NCBI RefSeq assembly: GCF_025685395.1
Contig: NZ_JAGSYA010000004.1
Span: 2,108,001-2,172,000, forward strand
Direction: 5' to 3'
Length of the DNA: 64,000 nt
Source: Terriglobus tenax
Lineage (GTDB): Bacteria > Acidobacteriota > Terriglobia > Terriglobales > Acidobacteriaceae
The position numbers and the translations under genes are program-made. Shown in pieces: positions 50,919 through 63,134 of this stretch (its first letter is position 1; each line of letters begins with the position of its first letter). A model generated the notes under the pieces. That model saw only the letters and a program-made list of their open reading frames with translations, was not told where the DNA came from and made no database searches.

Positions 50919-52238
50919 TCATTCATGTTGGCCAAGGCCGAGTGTCTTGCGCAGCTCACCCTGCGCGAGCACGAGGCCGAGGTTGGCTTCCATGGCGCTG
51001 GCGGTGGAGGAACTGAGCTGGGCTTCAGCGGTGATCTGCTGTGAGGGAAGCGCGGCGTGCAGTTCGACCTGTTTCGTCTTGACGCGGGCGGCTTCGGCGC
51101 GCACCTGCTTTACCTCTTCGGCAAGATGGGCCAGGCCTTGCATGCGCTCGACCTTGTCGTAGGCGGCGTTGGCTTCGGCTTCGATGTGCGCGGTGACGTC
51201 TGCGAGCTTTACTTCGGCCTGGCGGAGTTGAATGCGCGACTTGCCCAGCTCGGCTTCGCGCTTGCCGCCGTCGAAGAGTTCGTAATGGAAGGCGACCCCG
51301 AAGGCACCGAAGTTGTGAACGAGGAAAGGGATGCCGCTCTGGTAGTTGTAGTGGGCGTAGGCAGTGACGTCGGGGATGTAGGCATCGCGTGCAACGGCAA
51401 GACCGGCGCGGGCGCGCTCTACGGTGGCCTTGGCACTGCGAACCTCAGGGCTTTCTGTGAGCGCGCGTCGAATGCCTTCGGCGCGTGATGGCAGATCGAC
51501 GGCAGCGTTGGCGGAGGTCTCGTCAAGATCGAAGACCGTGTTGACCGGAAGGCCAAGCAGATAAGCAAGCGTCAGGCTGGTGTCGCTGATGGCGAGCTGT
51601 TCGGTAAGCAGATCCTGCCTGGCCTGCAGCACGCTGGCGCGGCTTTCAAGCTCGGAGACGTCGAGTGCTTCGCCGCGCTGTACCTGGTCGTGGGCTTCCT
51701 GCAGGCTTGCCTCAGAGGCTTTCAGTTGCTGTTCGGCTGCATGCTTCTTCCATTGCGCGATCAGCACGCCGTAGTAAACCTGGCGGACTTTCAGGGCGAC
51801 GGTATCGCGCGCATCTTCCAACTCAATCTCGGCGACTTTGACTCCGGCGGCCGCGGCCTTGTTGCCTTCGTGGACTTTGAAGAGCTGCGTCATGGGTTGA
51901 TTGAGCATGGTGCGGCTCAGGTAGCTGGTGCTGGCGCCCTGGCCCACGGTGACGGTTTCGACGGGCGTGTTGTTGCCAAGTGCACCCTTAGGCAGTGTGA
52001 CGCCTTGCAGCTCGGTGATGTGCGAGGCCTGGCTCTCGTTGCTGAGTTGCGGGAAGTAGTGCGAGCGCGCTTCGTCTTTCTCGCGCTGCTTGCCGCTGAC
52101 TTCGAGCCGTGCGAGCTCGAGGGTGCGGTTCTGCCGCAGGGCCTGGTCGATGGCCTCGTTGAGCGTAAGGTGCACGGGGGCGGCCTGTTGTGCACAGGCG
52201 GTGGCGGTGACCATCAGGGCAAAGAGGTATCGCTTCAA
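50919..52238 (-). CDS. TolC-family outer membrane efflux protein
   Basis: A 439-residue outer-membrane channel of the TolC/OEP family. It has a signal peptide (LFALMVTATACA), then two repeats of long coiled-coil helices with barrel strands (LTLNEAIDQALRQNRTLELA, AHYNYQSGIPFLVHNFGAFG). It is the last gene of the operon HlyD-MFS-TolC, 11 bp after the MFS gene. It completes a tripartite drug or metabolite efflux system spanning both membranes. Confidence 0.9.
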   Translation of the reverse strand: MKRYLFALMVTATACAQQAAPVHLTLNEAIDQALRQNRTLELARLEVSGKQREKDEARSHYFPQLSNESQASHITELQGVTLPKGALGNNTPVETVTVGQGASTSYLSRTMLNQPMTQLFKVHEGNKAAAAGVKVAEIELEDARDTVALKVRQVYYGVLIAQWKKHAAEQQLKASEASLQEAHDQVQRGEALDVSELESRASVLQARQDLLTEQLAISDTSLTLAYLLGLPVNTVFDLDETSANAAVDLPSRAEGIRRALTESPEVRSAKATVERARAGLAVARDAYIPDVTAYAHYNYQSGIPFLVHNFGAFGVAFHYELFDGGKREAELGKSRIQLRQAEVKLADVTAHIEAEANAAYDKVERMQGLAHLAEEVKQVRAEAARVKTKQVELHAALPSQQITAEAQLSSSTASAMEANLGLVLAQGELRKTLGLGQHE

Positions 52239-52249
52239 GGTGGTTCTCC

Positions 52250-53869
52250 TTACGAGGGGTTAGCGGCTTTCGCTTCCCGGAATCCGATCTTCATGACGCC
52301 GACGCAGGCCAGCACGCAGAGCGCGGCGACGGAGGCCCAGGCGAGCGTGAGGAAGCAGTCGGCAATGCTGAGGGTAAAGGCCTGCTGGCGCACCTGCAGG
52401 GTGAGCAGAGCACCGGCGCGCGCGGCGGCTTCCGATGTTCCGGTGGAGTGCGGCGTCATGCCGCCCTGCAGAAGGCGCAGGCGATGTTGGGTGGCGGGGT
52501 CGGCCATCTGTACATGCAGGCCAAGCAGGTTGGAGTGTGTCTGCTCGCGCAGAGAGATCCAGTGTTGCATGAAGGCGACGCCGAGCTCTCCACCCATCAG
52601 ACGCACGGTTTGAAAGAAGCCGGAGAAGGTGAGCGCGTTGATGGGCTGCTGGATGGCACCGGAGTTGACGACCTCAAGAATGATGCTGCCGACCAGGCCG
52701 TTGAGTGCGATGCCTTGCCCCATGGCGAGCACGAGCTGCGAGGGCCAGAAGCTGGAGCCTGCCCATTGGGCATCGAGTTGCGCGTTGAGCAGGCAGCCTA
52801 TGGCGATGAGGGTGAAGCCGATGCCGAGCACCAGCCGCGAATCGATGCGTCCCAGCAGCCAGATACCGAGCAGGCCAGCGAGCACCTGCGGAAGCGCAAT
52901 CCAGAGAAGGACGGGGCCGGTTTCTTCGGGGCGATAGCCATGCACGCTGGCGAGGAAGCTGGGGAGCAGAACGACGGTACTGAGCAACAGGAAACGGAAG
53001 GCCGCGAGAAGCACTGCGAGGAAGATGACGTTGCGGCGCAGAAGGAAGCGGAGGTTGATGAGCGGGTTAGGCTCCATCATGCGGCGTACCAGAGCGGTGG
53101 TCCAGAGGAAGAGGCCGGAGGCGAGGAGAGCGATGAAGGTGCGCGAGTTCCACCAGTCGAGCCGCTGGCCCTGGTCGAGCGCTGTGTAGATAAGCGCAGC
53201 GCCCAGGCTGAAGTAGAGAAAGCCGCGCCAGTTGGGGCGAGGCTGTCCGGGCTTGGGTTGCGGCAGTGGCTGCGGTGCGATGCCGAAGTGGACGCAGAGC
53301 AGCATCACTGGCGTAAGCAGTGCGCCGAACCAGAAGATCCATCGCCAGGAGAGGTTGCCGACGAGGATGGCTTCAGTGGAATGCGCGATGTGTGTGGTGA
53401 AGACGACGTCTGCGCCATAAACAGCGATGCCGAAGAGCACATAGCGCATGGGCAGGTTGCGCAGGATGAACGAAAGCGTGAGCGGATAAAAGGTGCCTGC
53501 CGTGAGCCCCGCAAGCGCGAGCAGCACCAGCATCATGGGCAGGCCGCCGGAGAACGGGAGGAAGAAGGCGATGACGGTGTAAAGTGCGCTGCATGCCATC
53601 AACACGCGCCGCGGTCCGAGCAGGCCGCCGAGATACACCGAGAAGGGACCGATGAACATGGTGGCGGCGTTGAATGCCGTGCCAAGCCACGAAGCTTCAT
53701 CCGCGCCCAGGCCAAGTGCGCCGCGAAGATCGGGCAGACCGACCGAAAGCAGGCGGCCCTGCGCGGTGGCGATCATGGCGCCCAGCAGAACGGCAACGAT
53801 GCCGATCATGGGATGGTGCGTCGGGTGGACAGCTTCTCCGCTGGCCGATTGTGCGGTCTCTGCGGGCAT
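52250..53869 (-). CDS. MFS efflux transporter, DHA2 (EmrB-like) family
   Basis: A 539-residue transporter with 14 predicted transmembrane helices, including GVAVLLGAMIATAQ-like MIGIVAVLLGAMIATAQGRL, ALACSALYTVIAFF-type LMACSALYTVIAFFLPFSGG, and LAGLTAGTFYPLTLSFILRN. It exports small hydrophobic compounds with proton antiport through the adaptor and TolC partner encoded beside it. Its ATG shares one base with the stop of the adaptor gene (TAATG), indicating coupling. Confidence 0.9.
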   Translation of the reverse strand: MPAETAQSASGEAVHPTHHPMIGIVAVLLGAMIATAQGRLLSVGLPDLRGALGLGADEASWLGTAFNAATMFIGPFSVYLGGLLGPRRVLMACSALYTVIAFFLPFSGGLPMMLVLLALAGLTAGTFYPLTLSFILRNLPMRYVLFGIAVYGADVVFTTHIAHSTEAILVGNLSWRWIFWFGALLTPVMLLCVHFGIAPQPLPQPKPGQPRPNWRGFLYFSLGAALIYTALDQGQRLDWWNSRTFIALLASGLFLWTTALVRRMMEPNPLINLRFLLRRNVIFLAVLLAAFRFLLLSTVVLLPSFLASVHGYRPEETGPVLLWIALPQVLAGLLGIWLLGRIDSRLVLGIGFTLIAIGCLLNAQLDAQWAGSSFWPSQLVLAMGQGIALNGLVGSIILEVVNSGAIQQPINALTFSGFFQTVRLMGGELGVAFMQHWISLREQTHSNLLGLHVQMADPATQHRLRLLQGGMTPHSTGTSEAAARAGALLTLQVRQQAFTLSIADCFLTLAWASVAALCVLACVGVMKIGFREAKAANPS

Positions 53870-54978
53870 TACTTCACCTTGACGGTTACGGTTGCCGAGA
53901 AGCCGGGACGCAGGCGCGCGATCTGCTCCGATGGATCAAGCTGAATCTTGACCGGGACGCGCTGCACCACCTTGGTGAAGTTGCCGGTGGCATTGTCCGG
54001 CGGCAGCAGAGCGAACTGCGATCCGCTGGCGGGAGCAATCTGCGCGACGTGGCCTTTCAGCGTGACATCAGGCAGGGCATCGATGTGGACTTCCACGGGA
54101 TCGCCAGCTTTCATGTGGGCAAGCTGTGTCTCTTTGAAGTTGGCCTGGATCCACGGGCTGCTCTCGACCAGCGAGATGAGCTCCATGCCTGCGGCGACCA
54201 ATTGGCCGGGGTGTGTTTTGCGCTCGCCCACGGTGCCGGCGAGTGGGGCGCGGATGACGGTGTAGTTCAGGTTGACCTCGGCGACCTGGATCGCCGCTTT
54301 TTTCGCGGCGATGTCGGCGCGGAGCACATCGTCCTTGGTGCGCAGCGAGGTCAGCACGCGCTGCTGCCCGGCGAGTGCAACCTGTGCGCCCTTGGCGGCT
54401 GCTTCCGCGCGAGCACGATCAGCCTGGCGGCTGGCGAGCAGGGCTTGTGCTTTTTCGGCATCGGCTACGACGGCTTCCACACGCTGACGGGTCGAAGCGC
54501 GCGCTGCCAGCAGAGCTTCCTGACGGGCACGCTCGCTGTTGGCGTGTTCCACGTCGGGCTTGGCTGCGGCAATGCCAGCATCGGCGGCGGTGACGGCTGC
54601 CTGCGCGGCGGTGATCTGCGTCTCCGCGCCGCGAATCTGTTCTTCCTGCACACGCTTGGCGTCTTCGTTGGCGGTGAGTGATGCTTCAGCAGCGGCAAGC
54701 GCAGCCTGTGCCTGGGCGAGAGCAGCGCGGTAGTCTTCGTCCTGCAGCTGCACCAGCACCTGGCCGGGCGTGACGGTGGCGTAATCCTGGACCAGCACCT
54801 CTTTCACCGTGCCGCTGACGCGTGTGCTGAGCGGTGTGACGTCGGTGCGGACGTAAGCATCGTCGGTGGATTGCTCAGAGCGGTTAGCGCCCCAGGAGCC
54901 CCAGCAGCCTTGAATGGTAAGCGCAAGGGCTGCCGCAATGGCGAGAACGAGAACGGGTACACCAAATTTGCGAAGCAC
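53869..54978 (-). CDS. Membrane-fusion (HlyD/EmrA-like) efflux adaptor
   Basis: A 369-residue periplasmic adaptor. One N-terminal transmembrane helix (FGVPVLVLAIAAALALTIQG), the lipoyl half motifs (STRVSGTVKEVLVQDYATVT and APLAGTVGERKTHPGQLVAA), and a long Ala-rich coiled coil between them (AQAQAALAAAEASLTANEDA). The typical TDDAYVRTDV follows the membrane helix as in EmrA. The GTG at 54978 has GAGG 6 bp upstream; the open frame begins at 54999. It is the first gene of the efflux operon. Confidence 0.9.
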   Translation of the reverse strand: MLRKFGVPVLVLAIAAALALTIQGCWGSWGANRSEQSTDDAYVRTDVTPLSTRVSGTVKEVLVQDYATVTPGQVLVQLQDEDYRAALAQAQAALAAAEASLTANEDAKRVQEEQIRGAETQITAAQAAVTAADAGIAAAKPDVEHANSERARQEALLAARASTRQRVEAVVADAEKAQALLASRQADRARAEAAAKGAQVALAGQQRVLTSLRTKDDVLRADIAAKKAAIQVAEVNLNYTVIRAPLAGTVGERKTHPGQLVAAGMELISLVESSPWIQANFKETQLAHMKAGDPVEVHIDALPDVTLKGHVAQIAPASGSQFALLPPDNATGNFTKVVQRVPVKIQLDPSEQIARLRPGFSATVTVKVK

Positions 54979-55038
54979 GAGGTGCCTCCTCAGGAACAAG
55001 AAAAGTCAGCTTTGCGGAACATCAATGGAAGACAGTAA

Positions 55039-55253: not shown

Positions 55254-56270
55254 TTACAGCTTGCGGCCGACAATCGGCGCGAGCTGCTTCAACTGCGCGT
55301 TCAGCTTGTTGAGCTGCTCCGGGAAGAGGGACTGAGCGCCGTCACTCATGGCCTTGTCGGGGTTGGGATGCATCTCCATCAGCAGGCCATCAGCACCGGC
55401 GGCGACCGAGGCCAGCGCAAGCGCGGGAACCAGGTCGCGCTTGCCCACGCCGTGTGACGGATCGCCGAAGACAGGCAGGTGGGTCAGCTTCTTGAGCACG
55501 GGGATCGCGGAGACATCCATCGTGTTGCGGGTATAGGTCTCGAAGGTGCGAATACCGCGCTCGCAGAGCATGAGGTCGTAGTTGCCGCCGGAGAGGATGT
55601 ACTCGGCGCTCAACAGAACTTCCTCGATGGTCGCGGCGATGCCGCGCTTCAGCAGGCAGGCGGTACGGGTGTGGCCCAGTTCGCGCAGAAGGTTGAAGTT
55701 CTGCATGTTGCGCGCGCCGATCTGGAAGACGTCGACGTAGGGCAGCATGGGCTCAATCTGCGAGATCTCCATGACCTCGGTGATGACCAGAAGGCCGTTC
55801 GCATCGGCGGCCTCGCGCATCAGCTTCAGGCCCTCGATACCCATGCCCTGGAAGCTGTACGGCGAGCTGCGGGGTTTGAAGGCGCCGCCACGGAGGAACT
55901 TGCTGCCCGACGCGGCAACCTGTTTTGCGGAGAGGTGGATCTGCTCCTTCGATTCGACCGAGCAGGGGCCAGCCATGATGACAATCTCTTCGCCACCGAC
56001 GACGACGCCATTGCGGAACTTGATTTTTGTGCCCTCGGGGCGGAAGCTGCGGCCGGCGAGCTTATAGGGAGAGGAGATGCGATAGGCGTCCTGCACGCCA
56101 GCCAGCACGGTGAACTCGGCGACATCAAATGCCTGCGGCGAGCCTACGCCGGCCAGGATGGTCTGCGCGGCGCCGGTAGTACGGTGCACGGCGAATCCCA
56201 GGTCCACCATGCGCTCAATGACGGACTGTATATGTTCTTCGGTGGCTGCATCCTGCATTGCGACGATCAT
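55254..56270 (-). CDS. aroF: 3-deoxy-7-phosphoheptulonate (DAHP) synthase
   Basis: First step of the shikimate pathway: condenses PEP and erythrose-4-phosphate. The 338-residue protein is the type I-beta form. An N-terminal ferredoxin-like regulatory domain (residues about 1-70, [20 protein letters not shown]) is followed by the barrel with [70 protein letters not shown] and [16 protein letters not shown]. It is the last gene of the operon trpB-trpA-chorismate mutase-aroF. Confidence 0.95.
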
Positions 56271-56321
56271 TGCTCTTTCCTCTTCTTTCGTATCTTCTGA
56301 CGGGAGCCCACGCTCCTTCCG

Positions 56322-56585
56322 TCAGTTGTCTTTCTTCTGGAGCGCACGCATCACGTCGATGATGCGCTCGTAAATTTTCTGGAGCTCCGCATCCGGCAGC
56401 GGGCCGGGGTTGCAACTGCGGATATGCTCAAAGACCTTCTGTTCGCGGCCCGGCTCATACACGGGGAGCGCCTGCTGTGCCTTCAACATGCCGATGTTCT
56501 GGGCTGCCTCAGCCCGCTGGTTGATCAGCTTCACAATCTGCTCGTCCAGCTCGTCAATCCGCTTGCGCCAGTCCGCTATCTCCAT
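56322..56585 (-). CDS. Chorismate mutase (AroQ type)
   Basis: An 87-residue all-helical AroQ chorismate mutase, converting chorismate to prephenate. The first helix holds WRKRIDELDEQIVKLINQRA (catalytic Arg), followed by IGMLKAQQALPVYEPGREQK (catalytic Lys and Arg) and IYERIIDVMRALQKK. It is free-standing rather than fused to TyrA or PheA, and lies between trpA and aroF. Type I-beta DAHP synthases often depend on or interact with such a mutase, which may explain the neighbourhood. Confidence 0.93.
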   Translation of the reverse strand: MEIADWRKRIDELDEQIVKLINQRAEAAQNIGMLKAQQALPVYEPGREQKVFEHIRSCNPGPLPDAELQKIYERIIDVMRALQKKDN

Positions 56586-56625
56586 CGTTTCTGCCTCACT
56601 TGGTTTCCCTTCCTGGTAATTGGCG

Positions 56626-57387
56626 CTAGGCGCGCAGACCCTTGATGAATGCCGCTGCGGCTGCAGGTGCTTCCTGCGGCGTGGATTTTTCGATGATGGC
56701 CACGATAGCCGATCCGATCACAGCCGCGTCAGCATACTGTCCCACGGCCTGGACATGTTCTGCATTCGAGACACCGAAGCCCAGAGCAATGGGCTTGCTG
56801 GTGAACTGGCGGATGCGGTTGACCAGCTTCTCCGCATCTTCTGAGAGTGTGGTTCCGGCACCGGTGATTCCCGTACGCGAGATGGCGTAGAGGAAGCCCT
56901 CGGTGTGCTGGGCGATAGCCTTCAGGCGTTCGTCGGGTGAGGTAGGCGCGGCAAGGAAGACGGGCGCGAGGCCGTTCTGCTTCATCGCGGCCAGGTACTC
57001 GGTGGCCTCTTCCACGATCATGTCGGTCAGCAGGACGCCATCAGCTCCTGCGGCCTTTGCGGCAGAGCAAAAGCTCTCCATGCCCATGCGGACGACGGGG
57101 TTCAGATAGCTGAAGAGGATCAGCCCCGCCTGCGGGCGGGCTTCGCGAATCTCCTTGCAGAGCGAGAGGACATCGCTCAGGCGGACGCCGCGGGCTACCG
57201 CCCGTTCCATCGCGCGCTGAATCACGGGGCCGTCGGCGAGGGGATCGCTGAAGGGCACGCCGAGTTCGAGGACATCGGCACCCGCGTCAATGGCGGCGAT
57301 GGCGATGGCCTTGGTGGTAGCGAGGTCAGGGTCGCCTGCGGTGAGGTAGATGACGAGGCCGGGTTTCTTGGTGAAGTTAATTGGCAT
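56626..57387 (-). CDS. trpA: Tryptophan synthase alpha subunit
   Basis: Cleaves indole-3-glycerol phosphate to indole, which is channelled to TrpB. The 253-residue TIM barrel has GLVIYLTAGDPDL, DVLELGVPFSDPLADGPVIQ (catalytic Glu), GADGVLLTDMIVEEA (catalytic Asp) and YAISRTGITGAGTTLSEDAE. The ATG at 57387 has no ribosome-binding site. A TTG at 57396 is an alternative. The upstream 43-bp gap is filled by TAGCT-rich repeats, which may have displaced the usual signal. Confidence 0.95.
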   Translation of the reverse strand: MPINFTKKPGLVIYLTAGDPDLATTKAIAIAAIDAGADVLELGVPFSDPLADGPVIQRAMERAVARGVRLSDVLSLCKEIREARPQAGLILFSYLNPVVRMGMESFCSAAKAAGADGVLLTDMIVEEATEYLAAMKQNGLAPVFLAAPTSPDERLKAIAQHTEGFLYAISRTGITGAGTTLSEDAEKLVNRIRQFTSKPIALGFGVSNAEHVQAVGQYADAAVIGSAIVAIIEKSTPQEAPAAAAAFIKGLRA

Positions 57388-57395
57388 AACGAACA

Positions 57396-57452
57396 AGCTT
57401 TTAGCTGTCAGCTTCTAGCTTTTAGCTAGAGGCCAGGAGCTAGCGGCCATCA
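57396..57452. repeat. TAGCT-rich short repeat between trpB and trpA
   Basis: AGCTTTTAGCT occurs twice (57396-57406 and 57417-57427) together with further AGCT/TAGC units up to about 57452. The whole trpB-trpA junction is made of these imperfect inverted and direct repeats, which could pair in the mRNA. Confidence 0.55.
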
Positions 57453-58663
57453 GCTCCTTTCAAATCCATCTCCTTGCGGAGGATGCCCATGTCCTTATCG
57501 CCGCGGCCGCTGACATTGACCATGATGACGTCACTCTTCGCCATCTTCGGAGCCTGCTTGATGGCCTCCGCTACGGCGTGGGCGGATTCCAGCGCGGGCA
57601 GGATGCCTTCCGTGCGTGAGAGCACCTTCAGCGCATCGAGGGCTTCCGCATCCGTGGCGAAGGTGTAGGTCGCGCGGCCCTGGTCGTGCAGCATGGCGTG
57701 CTCCGGGCCAACCGAGGCATAGTCCAGACCGGCCGAGACCGAGTGCGTGGTGGCAACCTGTCCGGCGTCGTTCTGCAGGACGTAGCTGTAGGTTCCCTGC
57801 AGAACGCCGGGGATGCCTCCGCTGAAGCGGGCAGCATGCTCGCCGAGAGCCGTGCCGCGTCCACCGGCTTCGACGCCGATGAGGCGGACGTTCTGATCCG
57901 GGATGAACTCGTAGAAGGCTCCGATGGCGTTGGATCCGCCGCCGACGCAGGCGATGACGGCATCGGGCAGCTTGCCCTCCTGCTCCAGAATCTGCTGCCT
58001 GGCTTCCTTGCTGATGACGCGGTGGAAGTCGCGCACCATGGTGGGGTAGGGATGTGCTCCGAGCGCCGAGCCCAGGATGTAGAAGGTGGTGCGGACGTTG
58101 GTGACCCAGTCGCGCATGGCCTCGTTGATGGCGTCCTTCAGCGTGGCGGAACCGGAGCCGACGCCGCGCACCTCAGCGCCCAGCAGGCGCATGCGATAGA
58201 CGTTCAGTTCCTGGCGGCGCATATCTTCCTCGCCCATGTAGATGACGCACTCCAGCCCGAAGAGCGCGCAGACGGTGGCGGTGGCCACGCCGTGCTGGCC
58301 TGCGCCGGTCTCCGCAATGATGCGCTGCTTGCCCATGCGGCGGGCGAGCAGCGCCTGGCCGAGAGCGTTGTTGATCTTGTGCGCTCCGGTGTGCAGCAGG
58401 TCTTCGCGCTTCAGGTAGATCTTCGCGCCGCCGAGTTGCTCGGTCAGCCGCTTGGCGAAGTAGAGCGGTGTGGGGCGGCCGACGTAGTCCTTCAGCAGCC
58501 CGGCAAGCTCATTCTGGAAGGCTGCTTCGTCGCGGACTGCGGCATAGGCCTGCTCCAGCTCCTGCAGGGCGGCCATCAGCGTTTCAGGGACGTAGCGGCC
58601 GCCGTAGGCGCCGAAACGGCCGTTGCCGAGGGTTCGAACCGGATCGATGATGCTGTGTTCCAT
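57440..58663 (-). CDS. trpB: Tryptophan synthase beta subunit
   Basis: PLP enzyme joining indole and serine to tryptophan. The 407-residue protein has [51 protein letters not shown] (PLP Lys), [36 protein letters not shown] and [17 protein letters not shown] at 58663 lies 6 bp after AAGGGA; ATG at 58669 is the alternative. It is the first structural gene of the operon and is preceded by a terminator-like attenuator and a leader peptide. Confidence 0.96.
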
Positions 58664-58682
58664 ACTCATTCCCTTCTGTTGC

Positions 58683-58723
58683 AAGCAAAACAAAAGCCGC
58701 GACCCTGTTGGGGTTCGCGGCTT
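58683..58723 (-). terminator. Attenuator (terminator) in the leader of the trpB operon
   Basis: On the minus strand GAAGCCGCGA (complement of 58715-58724) pairs with TCGCGGCTT (complement of 58694-58702), followed by TTTGTTTTGCTT. This Rho-independent terminator lies only about 20 bp upstream of trpB, inside the operon leader, so it must be conditional. Confidence 0.8.
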
Positions 58724-58772
58724 CGGTTGGAATCTCGTCGTGTGTTACCTGGGTACTGCTGAACCTGCGACG

Positions 58773-58844
58773 CTAAACCGCCGGAGCCGCTACTGTGCGC
58801 CAGTAGCGGAAGGTAAAGCTAAAGAAATGGGCGGTGTGCGTCAT
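58773..58844 (-). CDS. Leader peptide of the trpB-trpA-chorismate mutase-aroF operon
   Basis: A 23-codon reading frame (ATG at 58844, stop TAG at 58773-58775) with AAAGG 4 bp before the ATG. Its product starts MTHTAHFFSFTFRYWRTVAA. The block FFSFTFRYW holds four Phe, one Tyr and one Trp codon in nine positions. It ends 49 bp before the attenuator stem. The composition, position and overlap with a hairpin (58787-58809) fit a leader for ribosome-mediated attenuation sensing all three aromatic amino acids, matching an operon that includes aroF and chorismate mutase. This is inference from sequence alone. Confidence 0.75.
   Translation of the reverse strand: MTHTAHFFSFTFRYWRTVAAPAV
58787..58809 (-). 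promoter_or_regulatory. Pause hairpin of the leader, alternative to the attenuator
   Basis: On the minus strand CCGCTACT and AGTAGCGG (complements of 58802-58809 and 58787-58794) form a perfect 8-bp stem with a 7-nt loop. The 5' arm contains the Tyr codon, and the Trp codon begins at its end. The 3' arm plus CT (AGCGGCT) is complementary over 6 bp to AGCCGC of the attenuator 5' arm, giving a possible antiterminator when the ribosome stalls at these codons. Confidence 0.65.
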
Positions 58845-59032
58845 TGCGCCTTTGAGCGTACACGGATTTGGCCCGGAAATGCAAACCCCGCAGGCAACCT
58901 AATGGCCGGGGGGCCGGATTTTCTTTTCAGAGCGCGAGGCAAACACTTCCCTGCCCAGTGGCTCTAAAGGGTCTATAGGAAGTACCCGCTATATGCGTTT
59001 GCAGGCAGGGTGCCCCCACGGAGGACGTCATC

Positions 59033-59386
59033 ATGATGAAGAACGTCACGAAGTTTGGATCGACCATGATTTTGGCGGGGCTGCTTTCGACCCCGTTCAC
59101 CGCGATTGCGCAGGACCGCACTTACGAGGAACAACGCGCGCATGACCGGGCCAAGGCATCGCAGGATGCCAGCGATAAACGTCACCACACTACGGCCAAA
59201 GTTGTTGGTGGATCCGCCGCGGGCGGTGCCCTGCTGGGCGGAGTGATGGGCGGCGGCAAGGGTGCGCTGGTGGGCGCGGGTGTAGGCGCGGGCGGCGGCT
59301 ACGTCGCCGATAAGATCCGCAAGAAAAAAGGGACTGACAAGCGCGAGAAGGAATCCAGAGAGTACCGTGAGACGCACCCAAGGTAA
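59033..59386 (+). CDS. Exported glycine-zipper protein
   Basis: A 117-residue protein with a signal peptide (FGSTMILAGLLSTPFTAIA). A glycine-zipper segment follows (GGSAAGGALLGGVMGGGKGA, then LVGAGVGAGGGYVADK), with a charged C-terminus. Such proteins insert in or associate with membranes (compare glycine-zipper 2TM domain proteins). GGAGG lies 8 bp before the ATG. It is divergent from the trpB operon; the function is unknown. Confidence 0.75.
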   Translation: MMKNVTKFGSTMILAGLLSTPFTAIAQDRTYEEQRAHDRAKASQDASDKRHHTTAKVVGGSAAGGALLGGVMGGGKGALVGAGVGAGGGYVADKIRKKKGTDKREKESREYRETHPR

Positions 59387-59510
59387 TGGGTAGCTCCTGA
59401 ATTTTGTTGCATCTGACTGATGCTTCGTGGCGTACTTCATTCACCGCGTGGGTTTTTGAACCCATTGACGCTGACTCTGCATCTTTTAATGCAGAAAGCT
59501 GGTGAATTAC

Positions 59511-59666
59511 ATGCTGCGAAAGACCATTCTCGCCGCCGTGATGACCTTCCTGGCTGTGGGCATTGCTGAAGCCCGCGATACAACGCCGAAGGCACACGAT
59601 CACACTCCGCGCGTCAAGGACAGAACACCTCGTCCTCACGGAACGCAGTCTCCGCGCCGCGCCTAA
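59511..59666 (+). CDS. Very small exported basic peptide (51 residues)
   Basis: An ATG at 59511 opens a 51-codon frame. The first 21 residues form a good signal peptide (TILAAVMTFLAVGIAEA); the mature part is basic with repeated xTP(R/K) units (DTTPKAHDHTPRVKDRTPRP). A small stem-loop TCTGCAT/ATGCAGA (59476-59482 and 59489-59495) lies just upstream, and a terminator follows at 59695. The ribosome-binding site is weak. A real gene is likely because of the signal peptide and terminator, but it needs homologues for certainty. Confidence 0.55.
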   Translation: MLRKTILAAVMTFLAVGIAEARDTTPKAHDHTPRVKDRTPRPHGTQSPRRA

Positions 59667-59694
59667 ACACAGAAAAGCTCCTTCCTCTGAAACG

Positions 59695-59725
59695 AAAAAG
59701 GACGCCCCTCGCGGCGTCCTTTTTT
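59695..59725. terminator. Bidirectional terminator between the small peptide and MFS genes
   Basis: GGACGCC (59700-59706) and GGCGTCC (59713-59719) flanked by AAAAA on the left and TTTTTT on the right. Confidence 0.85.
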
Positions 59726-59731
59726 ACTGGC

Positions 59732-61318
59732 TCAATGTCCCATCGCCTCGGGTGAGGGTTTTTCGCTCTTTTTAGGCAGCCGCATCAGCAATGGCAAGGG
59801 CGACAGCAGCAGGATGACGAAGGCCAGCAGGGCAAAGGCATTCTTATAGCTGAGCATCTGCGCCTGCCGCAGCATCTCCTGGTAAGCGCGGCCCACCGCC
59901 AACTGGCTGGCCTGCGCCGCACTCATGCCCTGGCTGCGCAGAATGTTCGCAATGCTGCCAATGTAGTTGTCATACGCCGGTGAACCGGGCACCGTATTGG
60001 CCGCCAGCGCCGACTGGTGCGTTTGCGCGGTACGGGCCAGGAAGGTCGTCAACAGGGCGGTTCCCGCGCTTCCACCCAGGTTGCGGGCGAAGTTGGAGAG
60101 CGACGAGATCTGGTTCATCTTCGACGGCGGCACTCCCACATAGTTCAGCGTGGAAATGGGGATGAAGATGAAGGGCAGCCCGATGACCTGGAGCATGCGC
60201 CAGAGCGTGATCGTTCCATAGGAGGCAGTGAGGTCGAGCCGGGTGAGATTCCAGATGCCAAGCGCCGTGGCCAGGTAGCCGAGCACAACGGTCAGACGCG
60301 GGTCGATTTTGCCCAGCGACCGGCCCGCCGCGGCCATGCCGAACATCATGACGAAGCCGGCCGGCGACAACACCTTGCCTGCCCTTTCTGCCGTGTAGCC
60401 AAGCAGGGTCTGCAGGTACTGCGGAATAAGCACGGTAGAGCCGAACAGCACCATGCCGAGCACCAGTTGCAGGAAGACAGCCGTACCGAAGTTTCGATTT
60501 TTCAGGAGCTTGAGGTCGACAATCGGGTCCGGGTGACGCCATTCCCACCAGGTGAAGAAGAGCAGCAGGCCCGCGGCGGCGATCGCCGTGGCGCGGATCA
60601 TAGGGTCGCCGAACCAGTCCTTTTCCTGTCCCTTGTCCAGGGTGAACTCCAGCAGTCCCACGCCGAGCGCCACCAGGCCGAGACCGGTGAAGTCGACCGG
60701 TTGGCGATGCGCCTCCGCGGCCCGCTCCTTCAGGTACGGCGGGTCCTCGACCATGCGGTTCGACAGCCAGATGGAGAGGATGCCGATGGGGATGTTGATG
60801 AAGAAGATCCAGTGCCAGGAGTAGTTATCCGTCAGCCAGCCACCGAGCGTGGGACCAATGGCCGGAGCGACCACCACGGCCATGCCGTAGACGGCGAAGG
60901 CCTGCCCGCGCTTTTCCGTCGGGAAAGTGTCCGCCAGGATGGCCTGCTCTGACGGCGCCAGGCCACCGCCGCCAAGCCCCTGCAGGATGCGCGCAAGGAT
61001 GAGCATGGGCATGCTGGTGGCGATACCGCAAAGGAAGGAGCAGACCGTAAACATGATGACGCAGGTCATGTAGAAACGCTTGCGTCCGAAACGGTTGGAG
61101 AGCCAGCCGGAGACGGGCAGGATGATGGCGGAGGCGACCAGGTAGCTGGTGAGCACCCAGGTCGCCTCTTCCGAACTGGCGCCGAGTGAACCGGCAATGT
61201 GCGGCAGGGCGACATTGGCGATGGAGGTATCGAGCACCTCCATAAAGGTGGCCAGCGTGACCGTGAGCGCAATGGCCCAGGGATTGTGCCGGGGCTTCCA
61301 ATTGTGATCGTAAGACAT
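59732..61318 (-). CDS. MFS drug efflux transporter, DHA2 (EmrB/QacA) family
   Basis: A 528-residue, 14-helix transporter. The signature LDTSIANVALPHIAGSLGAS, LPVSGWLSNRFGRKRFYMTC (motif A) and LARILQGLGGGGLAPSEQAI (motif B) are intact, with VVAPAIGPTLGGWLTDNYSW as motif C. It lies divergent from a MarR-family gene with an operator between, so MarR repression relieved by the substrate is likely. Unlike the pump at 52250 it has no adaptor or TolC gene beside it. Confidence 0.93.
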   Translation of the reverse strand: MSYDHNWKPRHNPWAIALTVTLATFMEVLDTSIANVALPHIAGSLGASSEEATWVLTSYLVASAIILPVSGWLSNRFGRKRFYMTCVIMFTVCSFLCGIATSMPMLILARILQGLGGGGLAPSEQAILADTFPTEKRGQAFAVYGMAVVVAPAIGPTLGGWLTDNYSWHWIFFINIPIGILSIWLSNRMVEDPPYLKERAAEAHRQPVDFTGLGLVALGVGLLEFTLDKGQEKDWFGDPMIRATAIAAAGLLLFFTWWEWRHPDPIVDLKLLKNRNFGTAVFLQLVLGMVLFGSTVLIPQYLQTLLGYTAERAGKVLSPAGFVMMFGMAAAGRSLGKIDPRLTVVLGYLATALGIWNLTRLDLTASYGTITLWRMLQVIGLPFIFIPISTLNYVGVPPSKMNQISSLSNFARNLGGSAGTALLTTFLARTAQTHQSALAANTVPGSPAYDNYIGSIANILRSQGMSAAQASQLAVGRAYQEMLRQAQMLSYKNAFALLAFVILLLSPLPLLMRLPKKSEKPSPEAMGH

Positions 61319-61324
61319 GGAGGG

Positions 61325-61361
61325 ATATCAGCTAGCTGCGATAGAATATCAGGTAGCTGAT
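61325..61361. promoter_or_regulatory. MarR-type operator between the MFS pump and marR-like genes
   Basis: ATATCAG-C/G-TAGCTG occurs twice in direct orientation (61325-61338 and 61346-61359, 13 of 14 identical, 21 bp apart). Each copy is itself palindromic: CAGCTAGCTG at 61329-61338 and ATCAGGTAGCTGAT at 61348-61361. The second overlaps the ATG of the MarR gene. Confidence 0.7.
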
Positions 61362-61818
61362 GATGAACGACACCAAAACCGAAGACAAAGCTGCAAAAAA
61401 GCAGGCTGAATCACGCCGCACTTTGAAGCTGATGAAGCGGCTGATGCTCGGTTTTCGCGCGCGGATGGATGAAGACCTTCGCCCGCTTGGAATTACGCTG
61501 GCCCAGTTGCGCGTGCTGCACGCCATCAAGACTGAAGCCACGGCCAGCGGGGCCCAGGTGGCACGAGAGTGCCACATTACGCCGCAGACCGCCCACGCAC
61601 TGATTCTGCGCGCAGAGAAAAACGGCTGGATTGTGCGCGAACACGATGCGACCAATGAGCGTCGACGGATTGCCAAACTGACCCCAACCGGAGAAAAACT
61701 GCTGGAGGATGCCGATGTGCTGGTCCAGCAGATTGAGACCGAGATGTGGGAAGGTGTGAAGCGGACCGACCTGAAAGCGATGAACGACCTGCTGGAAGTG
61801 GCAGCGGGACGACTGTAG
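61360..61818 (+). CDS. MarR-family transcriptional regulator
   Basis: A 152-residue winged-helix repressor: LMKRLMLGFRARMDEDLRPL, GITLAQLRVLHAIKTEATAS, GAQVARECHITPQTAHALIL, RAEKNGWIVREHDATNERRR (wing) and IAKLTPTGEKLLEDADVL. It is divergent from the DHA2 pump and its start codon lies inside the operator, indicating autorepression. Two adjacent ATG codons (61360, 61363) are possible starts. Confidence 0.92.
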   Translation: MMNDTKTEDKAAKKQAESRRTLKLMKRLMLGFRARMDEDLRPLGITLAQLRVLHAIKTEATASGAQVARECHITPQTAHALILRAEKNGWIVREHDATNERRRIAKLTPTGEKLLEDADVLVQQIETEMWEGVKRTDLKAMNDLLEVAAGRL

Positions 61819-61895
61819 CCAGAGAGCAGCAGCACCTTTGCTTCGGTGCAGGATGTCGGACCCGCGCGGCTTCCTGTCATTTACCCTAGAAAGAT

Positions 61896-63134
61896 ATGGC
61901 AACCACAGCATCGCCTCAGGTTGAGGTCACACTGAAGGACATTGAAACCGCGCGGGAGCGGATTCGTGGCAGTGTGTACGAGTCTCCCTGCACGCGGTCA
62001 GAAAAGCTGTCGCGGGCGACCGGTCTTGAGGTCTACCTGAAGCTGGAAAACCTGCAGATGACCGGCAGCTTCAAGGAACATGGCGCTTTGAACAAGATCG
62101 CCACGCTGACGCCGGAGCAGGCCCGTCGTGGTGTGATTGCCGCCAGCGCCGGCAACCATGCGCAGGGCGTGGCGTATCACGCGACCAAGCGCGGGATTGC
62201 GGCAACGATCGTGATGCCGCTGGCGACTCCGCTGGTGAAGGTGACGGCGACGCGGAACTTTGGCGCGAACGTCGTGCTGCACGGCGCAAACTACGACGAG
62301 GCCTATGCGGAAGCCATGCGCCTGCGCGAAGAGCATGGCTTTACCTTCGTGCATCCGTTTGACGACCCTGCGGTGATTGCAGGACAGGGCGTGATCGGCC
62401 TGGAGATGCTGGACCAGGTGCCGAACCTGGGAGCGGTGATTGTTCCCATTGGCGGCGGCGGCATGGTTGGCGGCATTGCGACCGCGGTGAAGGAACGCAA
62501 TCCGAAGATCCAGGTCGTGGGCGTACAGACGGCGCGACTGGCCAGCATGAAGGCAGCGGTGGATGCCGGCCACCATGTGACGCTTGATCCGGCTACAACC
62601 ATCGCCGACGGCATCGCCGTGCGCCGTGCGGGCGATGTGACCATGCCGATTGCGCAGCGTTATGTCGACCGCATTGTGACGGTGGATGAGGACGAGATCG
62701 CATCCGCCATCCTGGTACTGCTGGAAGGTGAAAAGACCCTGGCTGAAGGTGCTGGCGCAACCGCGCTGGCAGCCGTGATGCAGGGCAAGACAGGATTGGC
62801 CCCGGGAACGAAGACGGCGGTACTGGTGAGCGGCGGCAACATTGACGTGACACTGCTGAGCCGCATTATCGAGCGCGGCCTGGTGAAGGACGGACGCCTG
62901 ATCCGCCTGCGCATTCACCTGCTGGATAAGCCGGGAGCCCTGTCTGAGCTGACGGAGCTGATTGCGTTCCACCGCATCAACATTGTGGATACGCTGTACA
63001 ACCGGGCGTATTACGACGTGAATCTGGGCGATACGGCCATCGACATCACGATGGAAGCGCGCGGTCCGGAGCATGTGGCGGAGTTGCTGGCTGCGCTGAC
63101 AGAGCGCGGCTTCCGGCACTCGCGCGTGCAGTAA
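61896..63134 (+). CDS. ilvA: Threonine ammonia-lyase with C-terminal ACT domain
   Basis: Deaminates threonine to 2-oxobutanoate, the entry to isoleucine synthesis. The 412-residue protein is the short form. The PLP-binding fold shows LENLQMTGSFKEHGALNKIA (PLP Lys), GVIAASAGNHAQGVAYHATK and VPIGGGGMVGGIATAVK. A single ACT domain of about 80 residues follows (LRIHLLDKPGALSELTELIA). The position after the PLP lysine is EHGA instead of the more usual xRGA. It may be the biosynthetic or the catabolic (TdcB-like) type; the ACT domain suggests regulation. Confidence 0.9.
   Translation: MATTASPQVEVTLKDIETARERIRGSVYESPCTRSEKLSRATGLEVYLKLENLQMTGSFKEHGALNKIATLTPEQARRGVIAASAGNHAQGVAYHATKRGIAATIVMPLATPLVKVTATRNFGANVVLHGANYDEAYAEAMRLREEHGFTFVHPFDDPAVIAGQGVIGLEMLDQVPNLGAVIVPIGGGGMVGGIATAVKERNPKIQVVGVQTARLASMKAAVDAGHHVTLDPATTIADGIAVRRAGDVTMPIAQRYVDRIVTVDEDEIASAILVLLEGEKTLAEGAGATALAAVMQGKTGLAPGTKTAVLVSGGNIDVTLLSRIIERGLVKDGRLIRLRIHLLDKPGALSELTELIAFHRINIVDTLYNRAYYDVNLGDTAIDITMEARGPEHVAELLAALTERGFRHSRVQ

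Follow-up and report, generated by a model that had tools for sequence, protein, structure and literature searches.

A candidate transcription attenuator with phenylalanine, tyrosine and tryptophan codons ahead of the trpB-trpA-chorismate mutase-aroF operon of Terriglobus tenax, and related elements in the Acidobacteriaceae

Known attenuators and the T. tenax leader

Ribosome-mediated amino-acid attenuators of the trpL/pheL kind combine a leader reading frame holding codons for the pathway product, a protector hairpin, a terminator, and an antiterminator that excludes both, and their definition includes read-through that rises as the cognate charged tRNA falls. The E. coli trpL and pheL attenuators sense one amino acid each. 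In C. glutamicum an aroR leader reportedly precedes the aroF operon, work that is said to be that of Neshat in 2014. As summarized in a review (PMC11802643), this leader has Phe-Tyr-Phe codons, attenuates a DAHP synthase operon, and responds to Phe and not to Tyr. Going by that description, aroR is the nearest known system to the element considered here: both have an aromatic-codon leader with mixed Phe/Tyr codons and an attenuated DAHP synthase operon, but aroR belongs to another phylum, shows the Phe-not-Tyr response, and has no Trp mentioned in the review's account. The leader codons and the protector/antiterminator/terminator logic of E. coli trpL and pheL, attenuators that the review also summarizes, would be shared as well; unlike those attenuators, the present element holds Phe, Tyr and Trp codons together and would use one GCGGC/GCCGC motif in all three structures.

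Two other systems resemble the element in more limited ways. The C. glutamicum ilvBNC leader, as described in PMC11857589, has Ile, Val and Leu codons and is transcribed from one nucleotide away from its start codon; by that description it is alike in serving several amino acids with one leader and in starting beside the leader start codon, but it belongs to the branched-chain pathway. The account of S. meliloti rnTrpL/peTrpL in PMC7298713 places the RNA's 5' end at the ATG of the leader, which makes the leader mRNA leaderless, a start like the near-leaderless one we propose below, in what is a Trp attenuator. Among surveys, one of Shewanella, after E. coli work, describes an aroF attenuator sensing Tyr-tRNA (PMC2659441), and in one of Actinobacteria the operons for phenylalanine or tyrosine yielded no conserved RNA structures (PMC1262725). 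As these sources present it, leader genes in Acidobacteria have been counted according to how far away the following gene lies (PMC4833913), and almost none of the Acidobacteria attenuators predicted in a 2010 survey had a known function (PMC2965389). In those parts of the open-access PMC literature that our searches returned, subscription papers aside, neither a Phe/Tyr/Trp leader nor any amino-acid leader from Acidobacteria came up.

The window, meaning the whole 64,000-nucleotide stretch of T. tenax DNA that was analysed, carries on its minus strand trpB (tryptophan synthase beta, 57440..58669; PF00291 (PALP), as expected of TrpB), trpA (56626..57396; PF00290), a type II chorismate mutase (CM, 56322..56585; PF01817) and a type I DAHP synthase (DAHPS, aroF, 55254..56270; PF00793 and PF18152), and these Pfam matches back the gene identities proposed in the first-pass annotation. 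By eye, TolC-, MFS- and HlyD-type efflux-like genes follow the operon on its own strand (50919-54999), and a MarR-like gene lies near it on the plus strand (61360-61818).

Ahead of trpB on the minus strand is the predicted 23-codon leader frame (58773..58844), which encodes MTHTAHFFSFTFRYWRTVAAPAV followed by a stop and was present as originally annotated, with Phe, Tyr and Trp codons. Its predicted control codons F10 T11 F12 R13 Y14 W15 (UUU ACC UUC CGC UAC UGG, 58800..58817, minus strand) stand in a register common to 113 distinct leaders. Dinucleotide shuffling of 58683-58900 gave no frame in which nine codons held at least six aromatics of all three kinds (0/4000); since we devised this test after the sequence had been seen, conservation is the stronger argument. 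The protector (1:2) hairpin (58787..58809, minus strand), supported by folding and covariation, has arms CCGCUACUG/CAGUAGCGG, the 5' arm being mostly the R-Y-W codons (CGC UAC UGG), Tyr and Trp among them, and the 3' arm mostly the V-A-A codons of the leader. It had been annotated as a perfect 8-bp hairpin, and while its location and its overlap with the Tyr and Trp codons held, it has 9 bp with a 5-nt loop. The 51-nt stretch containing it folds at -18 kcal/mol (5/200 shuffles were equally good), and folding of the whole 201-nt leader is modest (z -1.7 against shuffles).

A T-tailed terminator shortly before trpB had also been proposed, and here the evidence agreed: the predicted intrinsic terminator (3:4) with its U-tract (58687..58722, minus strand) has 11 pairs and one bulge in the consensus structure, none of 200 shuffles folded as well as its stretch (z -3.9), and the U-tract ends at 58687, 17 nt from the first trpB ATG at 58669. 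The window's terminator was not reported by a generic consensus scan, in our opinion because of the bulge. The candidate antiterminator would join a 5' strand (segment 2, 58778..58790) to a 3' strand (segment 3, 58717..58730) that overlaps the terminator 5' arm, both on the minus strand, and the predicted 6-bp pairing between the hairpin 3' arm and the terminator 5' arm does exist in the window as GCGGCU:AGCCGC, plus extensions.

Distribution and downstream genes

We located relatives by TrpB, which matched in 61/61 genomes, and an aromatic leader precedes trpB in all 19 genomes of the window's genus. A covariance model, R1, made from 21 trpB leaders and used with an E threshold of 0.01, matched the same number of genomes in the genus (19/19) and 184 of 398 genomes of the family (Acidobacteriaceae), spread over 32 of 79 genera; all 21 leaders had Trp, so R1 is biased against Trp-less ones. 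A second model, R2, built from 63 hits, matched 139/249 genomes of the order, all of the same family among the matches listed, and 33/297 genomes of the phylum, 26 within the family and seven outside. A wider scan of genome contigs returned mostly distant TrpB, and of its 80 loci only two, L031 and L032 (the latter from Granulicella sp. bog_405, a named relative carrying the element), passed the filter with the core motif. A few others have aromatic frames unrelated to the core motif; among them are two Bacillota MAG contigs (L078 and L103) with the short aromatic-rich frames MEGSFCFTCSIGFLCWYWQNEE and MNQAQCAWFCFYGDGERS before trpB. A tblastn search of the leader against phage records gave no match, which is uninformative.

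Altogether we examined 119 elements, 112 in the family and seven outside. This number was reached from 121 by dropping L031 and L169, whose leaders are identical to those of L141 and L186 (L181 and L182, which repeat L141 and L143, stood outside the 121); with identical elements or leaders counted once there were 113 distinct ones. Classes were assigned by whichever of five reference proteins gave the first match downstream, except that four elements were reassigned on reading the proteins; those of L243, L175 and L247 were confirmed by Pfam, and that of L245 by its likeness to L243. Of the 112 family elements, 50 stand before trpB, 33 before shikimate kinase, 19 before DAHP synthase and 10 before CM, class counts that hold for the 119 examined elements because loci were chosen among the matches listed and not at random; as the sequences are related, the counts are also not independent. 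All 112 lie within 300 nt of a match to one of these four proteins, the gene start is at most 300 nt from the element in 111/111 having a tblastn match, and 91 of the 112 were found by model and not via TrpB. Wherever a trpB-first locus extends at least 3000 nt downstream, as 15 do, DAHP synthase is present too. Five of the seven elements outside the family stand before CM, CM-PDT or DAHPS genes, and the other two (L244, L249), which have no usable leader, are probably false hits.

A second copy of the element occurs in the genome of the window itself, where its leader, MQHRAFQSGFCFTYRYCWPVAAQAKRGRAFRG, precedes a shikimate kinase gene (L153; PF01202). In the same genome no aromatic leader passed the filter in the ~350 nt upstream of the open frame of trpE (L267) or prephenate dehydratase (L276); the stretch covered for this check ended short of the region upstream of a second chorismate-binding gene (L269).

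The first-pass annotation had held that relatives keeping the operon without the small reading frame would refute attenuation. Conservation is complete among the 19 congeners, but in other genera trpBA-CM-DAHPS also occurs at loci that have no such leader: no aromatic leader was found before trpB in 11 other-genus family loci, and of 13 out-of-genus trpB loci lacking it, 10 show all four genes, trpB-trpA-CM-DAHPS. The picture is complicated by trpF, which lies directly upstream in 10 of those 11; these leaderless trpB loci with a trpF-like ORF (PF00697) immediately upstream are a different transcription context. Three loci have neither the leader nor an adjoining trpF-like ORF; their upstream neighbours are an aldehyde dehydrogenase (L024) and a sodium/proton exchanger (L033), and there is no trpF-like ORF near the third (L034). 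In genomes negative by the model, trpA, CM and DAHPS occur together in 16 of 17 trpA-side DAHPS loci, most of which end before the region upstream of trpB. R2 run over 43 loci (the 13 leaderless trpB loci, these 17 and 13 more) gave one hit, at E 0.35. Two genomes, G021 and G024, have no element at trpB and do have one before DAHP synthase. Since leaderless loci retain trpBA-CM-DAHPS, the operon can occur without the element, whose distribution is patchy.

Among the model-negative family genomes, 15 of 20 have two kinds of DAHP synthase (L282-L311), one 66-78% like the window's and beside trpA where seen, the other 45-50% alike and located elsewhere; in other genomes, operons with either kind have leaders. 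One candidate frame (L304), from 13 loci upstream of the second DAHP synthase in model-negative genomes, was rejected as being, by eye, the end of a longer upstream frame.

Probable promoter, alternative pairing and predicted control codons

Upstream of the leader on the minus strand are a probable -35 hexamer, TTGCAT (58879..58884), and, 18 nt after it, a probable -10 hexamer, TACGCT (58855..58860), which ends 10 nt before the leader ATG. Both are poor consensus matches; the -35, which a generic scan of the window did not find, has a position that is conserved across leaders. Of 113 distinct leaders, 83 have TANNNT 7-11 nt upstream of their start (shuffled mean 7.7), and 71 have it together with TTG 16-19 nt further up, against 0.5 when shuffled. 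The promoter-like pair is unevenly spread, being present in 25/26 leaders of genus g50, 18/30 of the window's genus, and 0/3 in each of genera g7, g45, g70 and g71. If this pair is the promoter, transcription would start ~0-5 nt before the ATG, and the leader mRNA is probably near-leaderless. The good ribosome-binding site proposed in the first-pass annotation found no support: its AAAGG exists but falls between the probable -10 and +1, and SD-like 4-mers show no enrichment, since 11 of the 113 distinct leaders have one where 9.8 would be expected.

Covariation favors the protector and the terminator. In a MAFFT alignment (A1) of both, 8/20 pairs change on both sides (score.219 vs.120 shuffled), and in a second alignment (A3), fitted to the covariance model, 12/20 do so (.231 vs.140; 0/500 shuffles). 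Of 113 distinct elements, 110 have a candidate antiterminator that overlaps both arms, 101 have one that outdoes 95 or more of 100 shuffles, and in 90 the element's own partner outdoes partners from other genera. Covariation of the antiterminator is weak (5 double-changed pairs vs 4.5 shuffled; score.094 vs.083), because the 5-bp core, whose pairs are 95-100% paired, almost never varies; such invariance would be explained if GCGGC/GCCGC serves all three structures. In several congeners (L006-L018 and L020) we saw a CUCUCU-like stretch after the hairpin near the leader stop, which is able to pair with AGAGA before the terminator and perhaps extends the antiterminator.

Leader codon content follows the pathway branch, as Trp codons occur in every leader before trpB (50/50) and shikimate kinase (33/33) and in none of 14 before CM/PDT (10 in the family, 4 outside); in one of these 14, L224, a Trp does occur after residue 24, a long way beyond the hairpin. 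DAHPS-first leaders have Trp in 17 of 20. The association of Trp with the operon has a Fisher p of 9e-5 by genus (9/9 vs 0/7) and of 4e-17 by element, the latter ignoring relatedness. Phe, Tyr and Trp are all present in 49/50 trpB leaders and 33/33 shikimate-kinase leaders, and with the 19/19 congeners and the covariation of protector and terminator these counts support the annotation of a mixed leader with an attenuator. Within an assumed stalling window of -9 to +9 of the arm start, which was our choice, all three aromatics fall in 38/50 trpB, 30/33 shikimate-kinase and 14/21 DAHPS-first leaders (classes as then assigned); in 8 of the 12 trpB leaders where they do not, Trp lies further upstream. 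The codon register of the hairpin arm is identical in 117/117 ORFs found, which had been selected for aromatic codons close to that arm. Where Phe occupies the F10 position (-8 from the hairpin; 58817-58815 in the window), the codon is UUU in 99 of 100 leaders; eight genes of the window use UUU 14 times and UUC 97 times. The near-invariant UUU is either a wobble-read sensor codon or reflects some RNA-level need. Two loci of other Acidobacteriota families (L243 and L245) have Phe-only leaders, e.g., MTTSRRFFPFSFRTSGARVGGV, before a fused chorismate mutase-prephenate dehydratase gene.

Proposed mechanism and alternatives

We consider it likely that the element is a ribosome-mediated transcription attenuator responding to shortage of Phe, Tyr or Trp. 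Computation gave a product-codon ORF, a protector over the control codons and a terminator before the first structural gene, together with predicted mutually exclusive pairings, conservation and a codon content that follows the operon; stalling, footprint, promoter position and read-through are the inferred part. In the proposed sequence of events the transcript would begin on the leader ATG or a few bases ahead of it and be translated as it is made. A shortage of any charged aromatic tRNA would stall the ribosome at F10, F12, Y14 or W15, where it would cover the protector 5' arm; GCGGC of the protector 3' arm would then be available for pairing to GCCGC of the terminator 5' arm, and RNA polymerase would read into trpB-trpA-CM-DAHPS. 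With all three aromatics plentiful the ribosome would pass, the protector would re-form or have its 3' side covered, and the terminator would stop transcription. The element would thus act as an OR gate on three end products.

The alternative with most in its favor, though we think it unlikely, is that the attenuator effectively senses one or two aromatics, e.g., Phe, the remaining aromatic codons being passengers as Tyr may be in C. glutamicum AroR, where, with Phe-Tyr-Phe codons, Tyr supply had no effect according to the review (PMC11802643). A dominant Phe signal would fit the near-invariant UUU at -8; however, passenger codons should not sort by operon, and Trp is found in 83/83 trpB and shikimate-kinase leaders and is absent from 14/14 CM/PDT leaders. 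We give distinctly less credence to a TnaC-like nascent-peptide arrest, in which the peptide F-T-F-R-Y-W would sense free aromatic amino acids in the ribosome. The peptide core is conserved, including Arg in 95 of 113 leaders, but the Arg and V-A-A codons sit in hairpin arms, the aromatic residues interchange, and non-aromatic positions are variable, as at -5 (T 66, S 20, I 7, P 5, A 5 and others, of 113).

A structured, conserved 5' RNA ahead of amino-acid genes could also be a T-box or a metabolite riboswitch overlapped by an ORF, which we regard as very improbable given that the ORF register and aromatic content are conserved. No Rfam family matched at gathering score in 20 element loci, bar one tRNA elsewhere in L031, and window positions 56000-62000 had only matches below that score, on which grounds we rejected an Rfam-listed family or T-box. 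As for an ordinary intergenic terminator beside a chance ORF, terminators and short ORFs are each frequent by chance and the leader as a whole has only a moderate folding advantage over shuffles, but the 0/4000 shuffles, the conservation in 19/19 congeners and across genera, the covariation and the second copies before shikimate kinase make coincidence scarcely credible, and we rejected it.

Returning to the multi-aromatic attenuator, we see even chances that it belongs to a regulon extending across the family, made up of related attenuators whose leader mRNAs are near-leaderless and whose codon set has been retuned in evolution to the controlled branch (Phe, Tyr and Trp for trpBA-CM-DAHPS and shikimate kinase, Phe and Tyr for CM/DAHPS, and Phe alone for CM-PDT in distant Acidobacteriota), and that the UUU, nearly obligatory and read by wobble, is the main sensor codon for Phe. 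Judged from its sequence and those of its relatives, the window's element is one member of a family of putative multi-aromatic attenuators, whose proposed mechanism is of a known kind. If that mechanism holds, a function would be assigned to one Acidobacteria attenuator, and a single RNA design would read three aromatic amino acids from positions before pathway entry points. The natural series of leaders (F/Y/W, F/Y and F) tied to different operons would then allow a direct test of the way control codons evolve and of how a single leader combines several signals.
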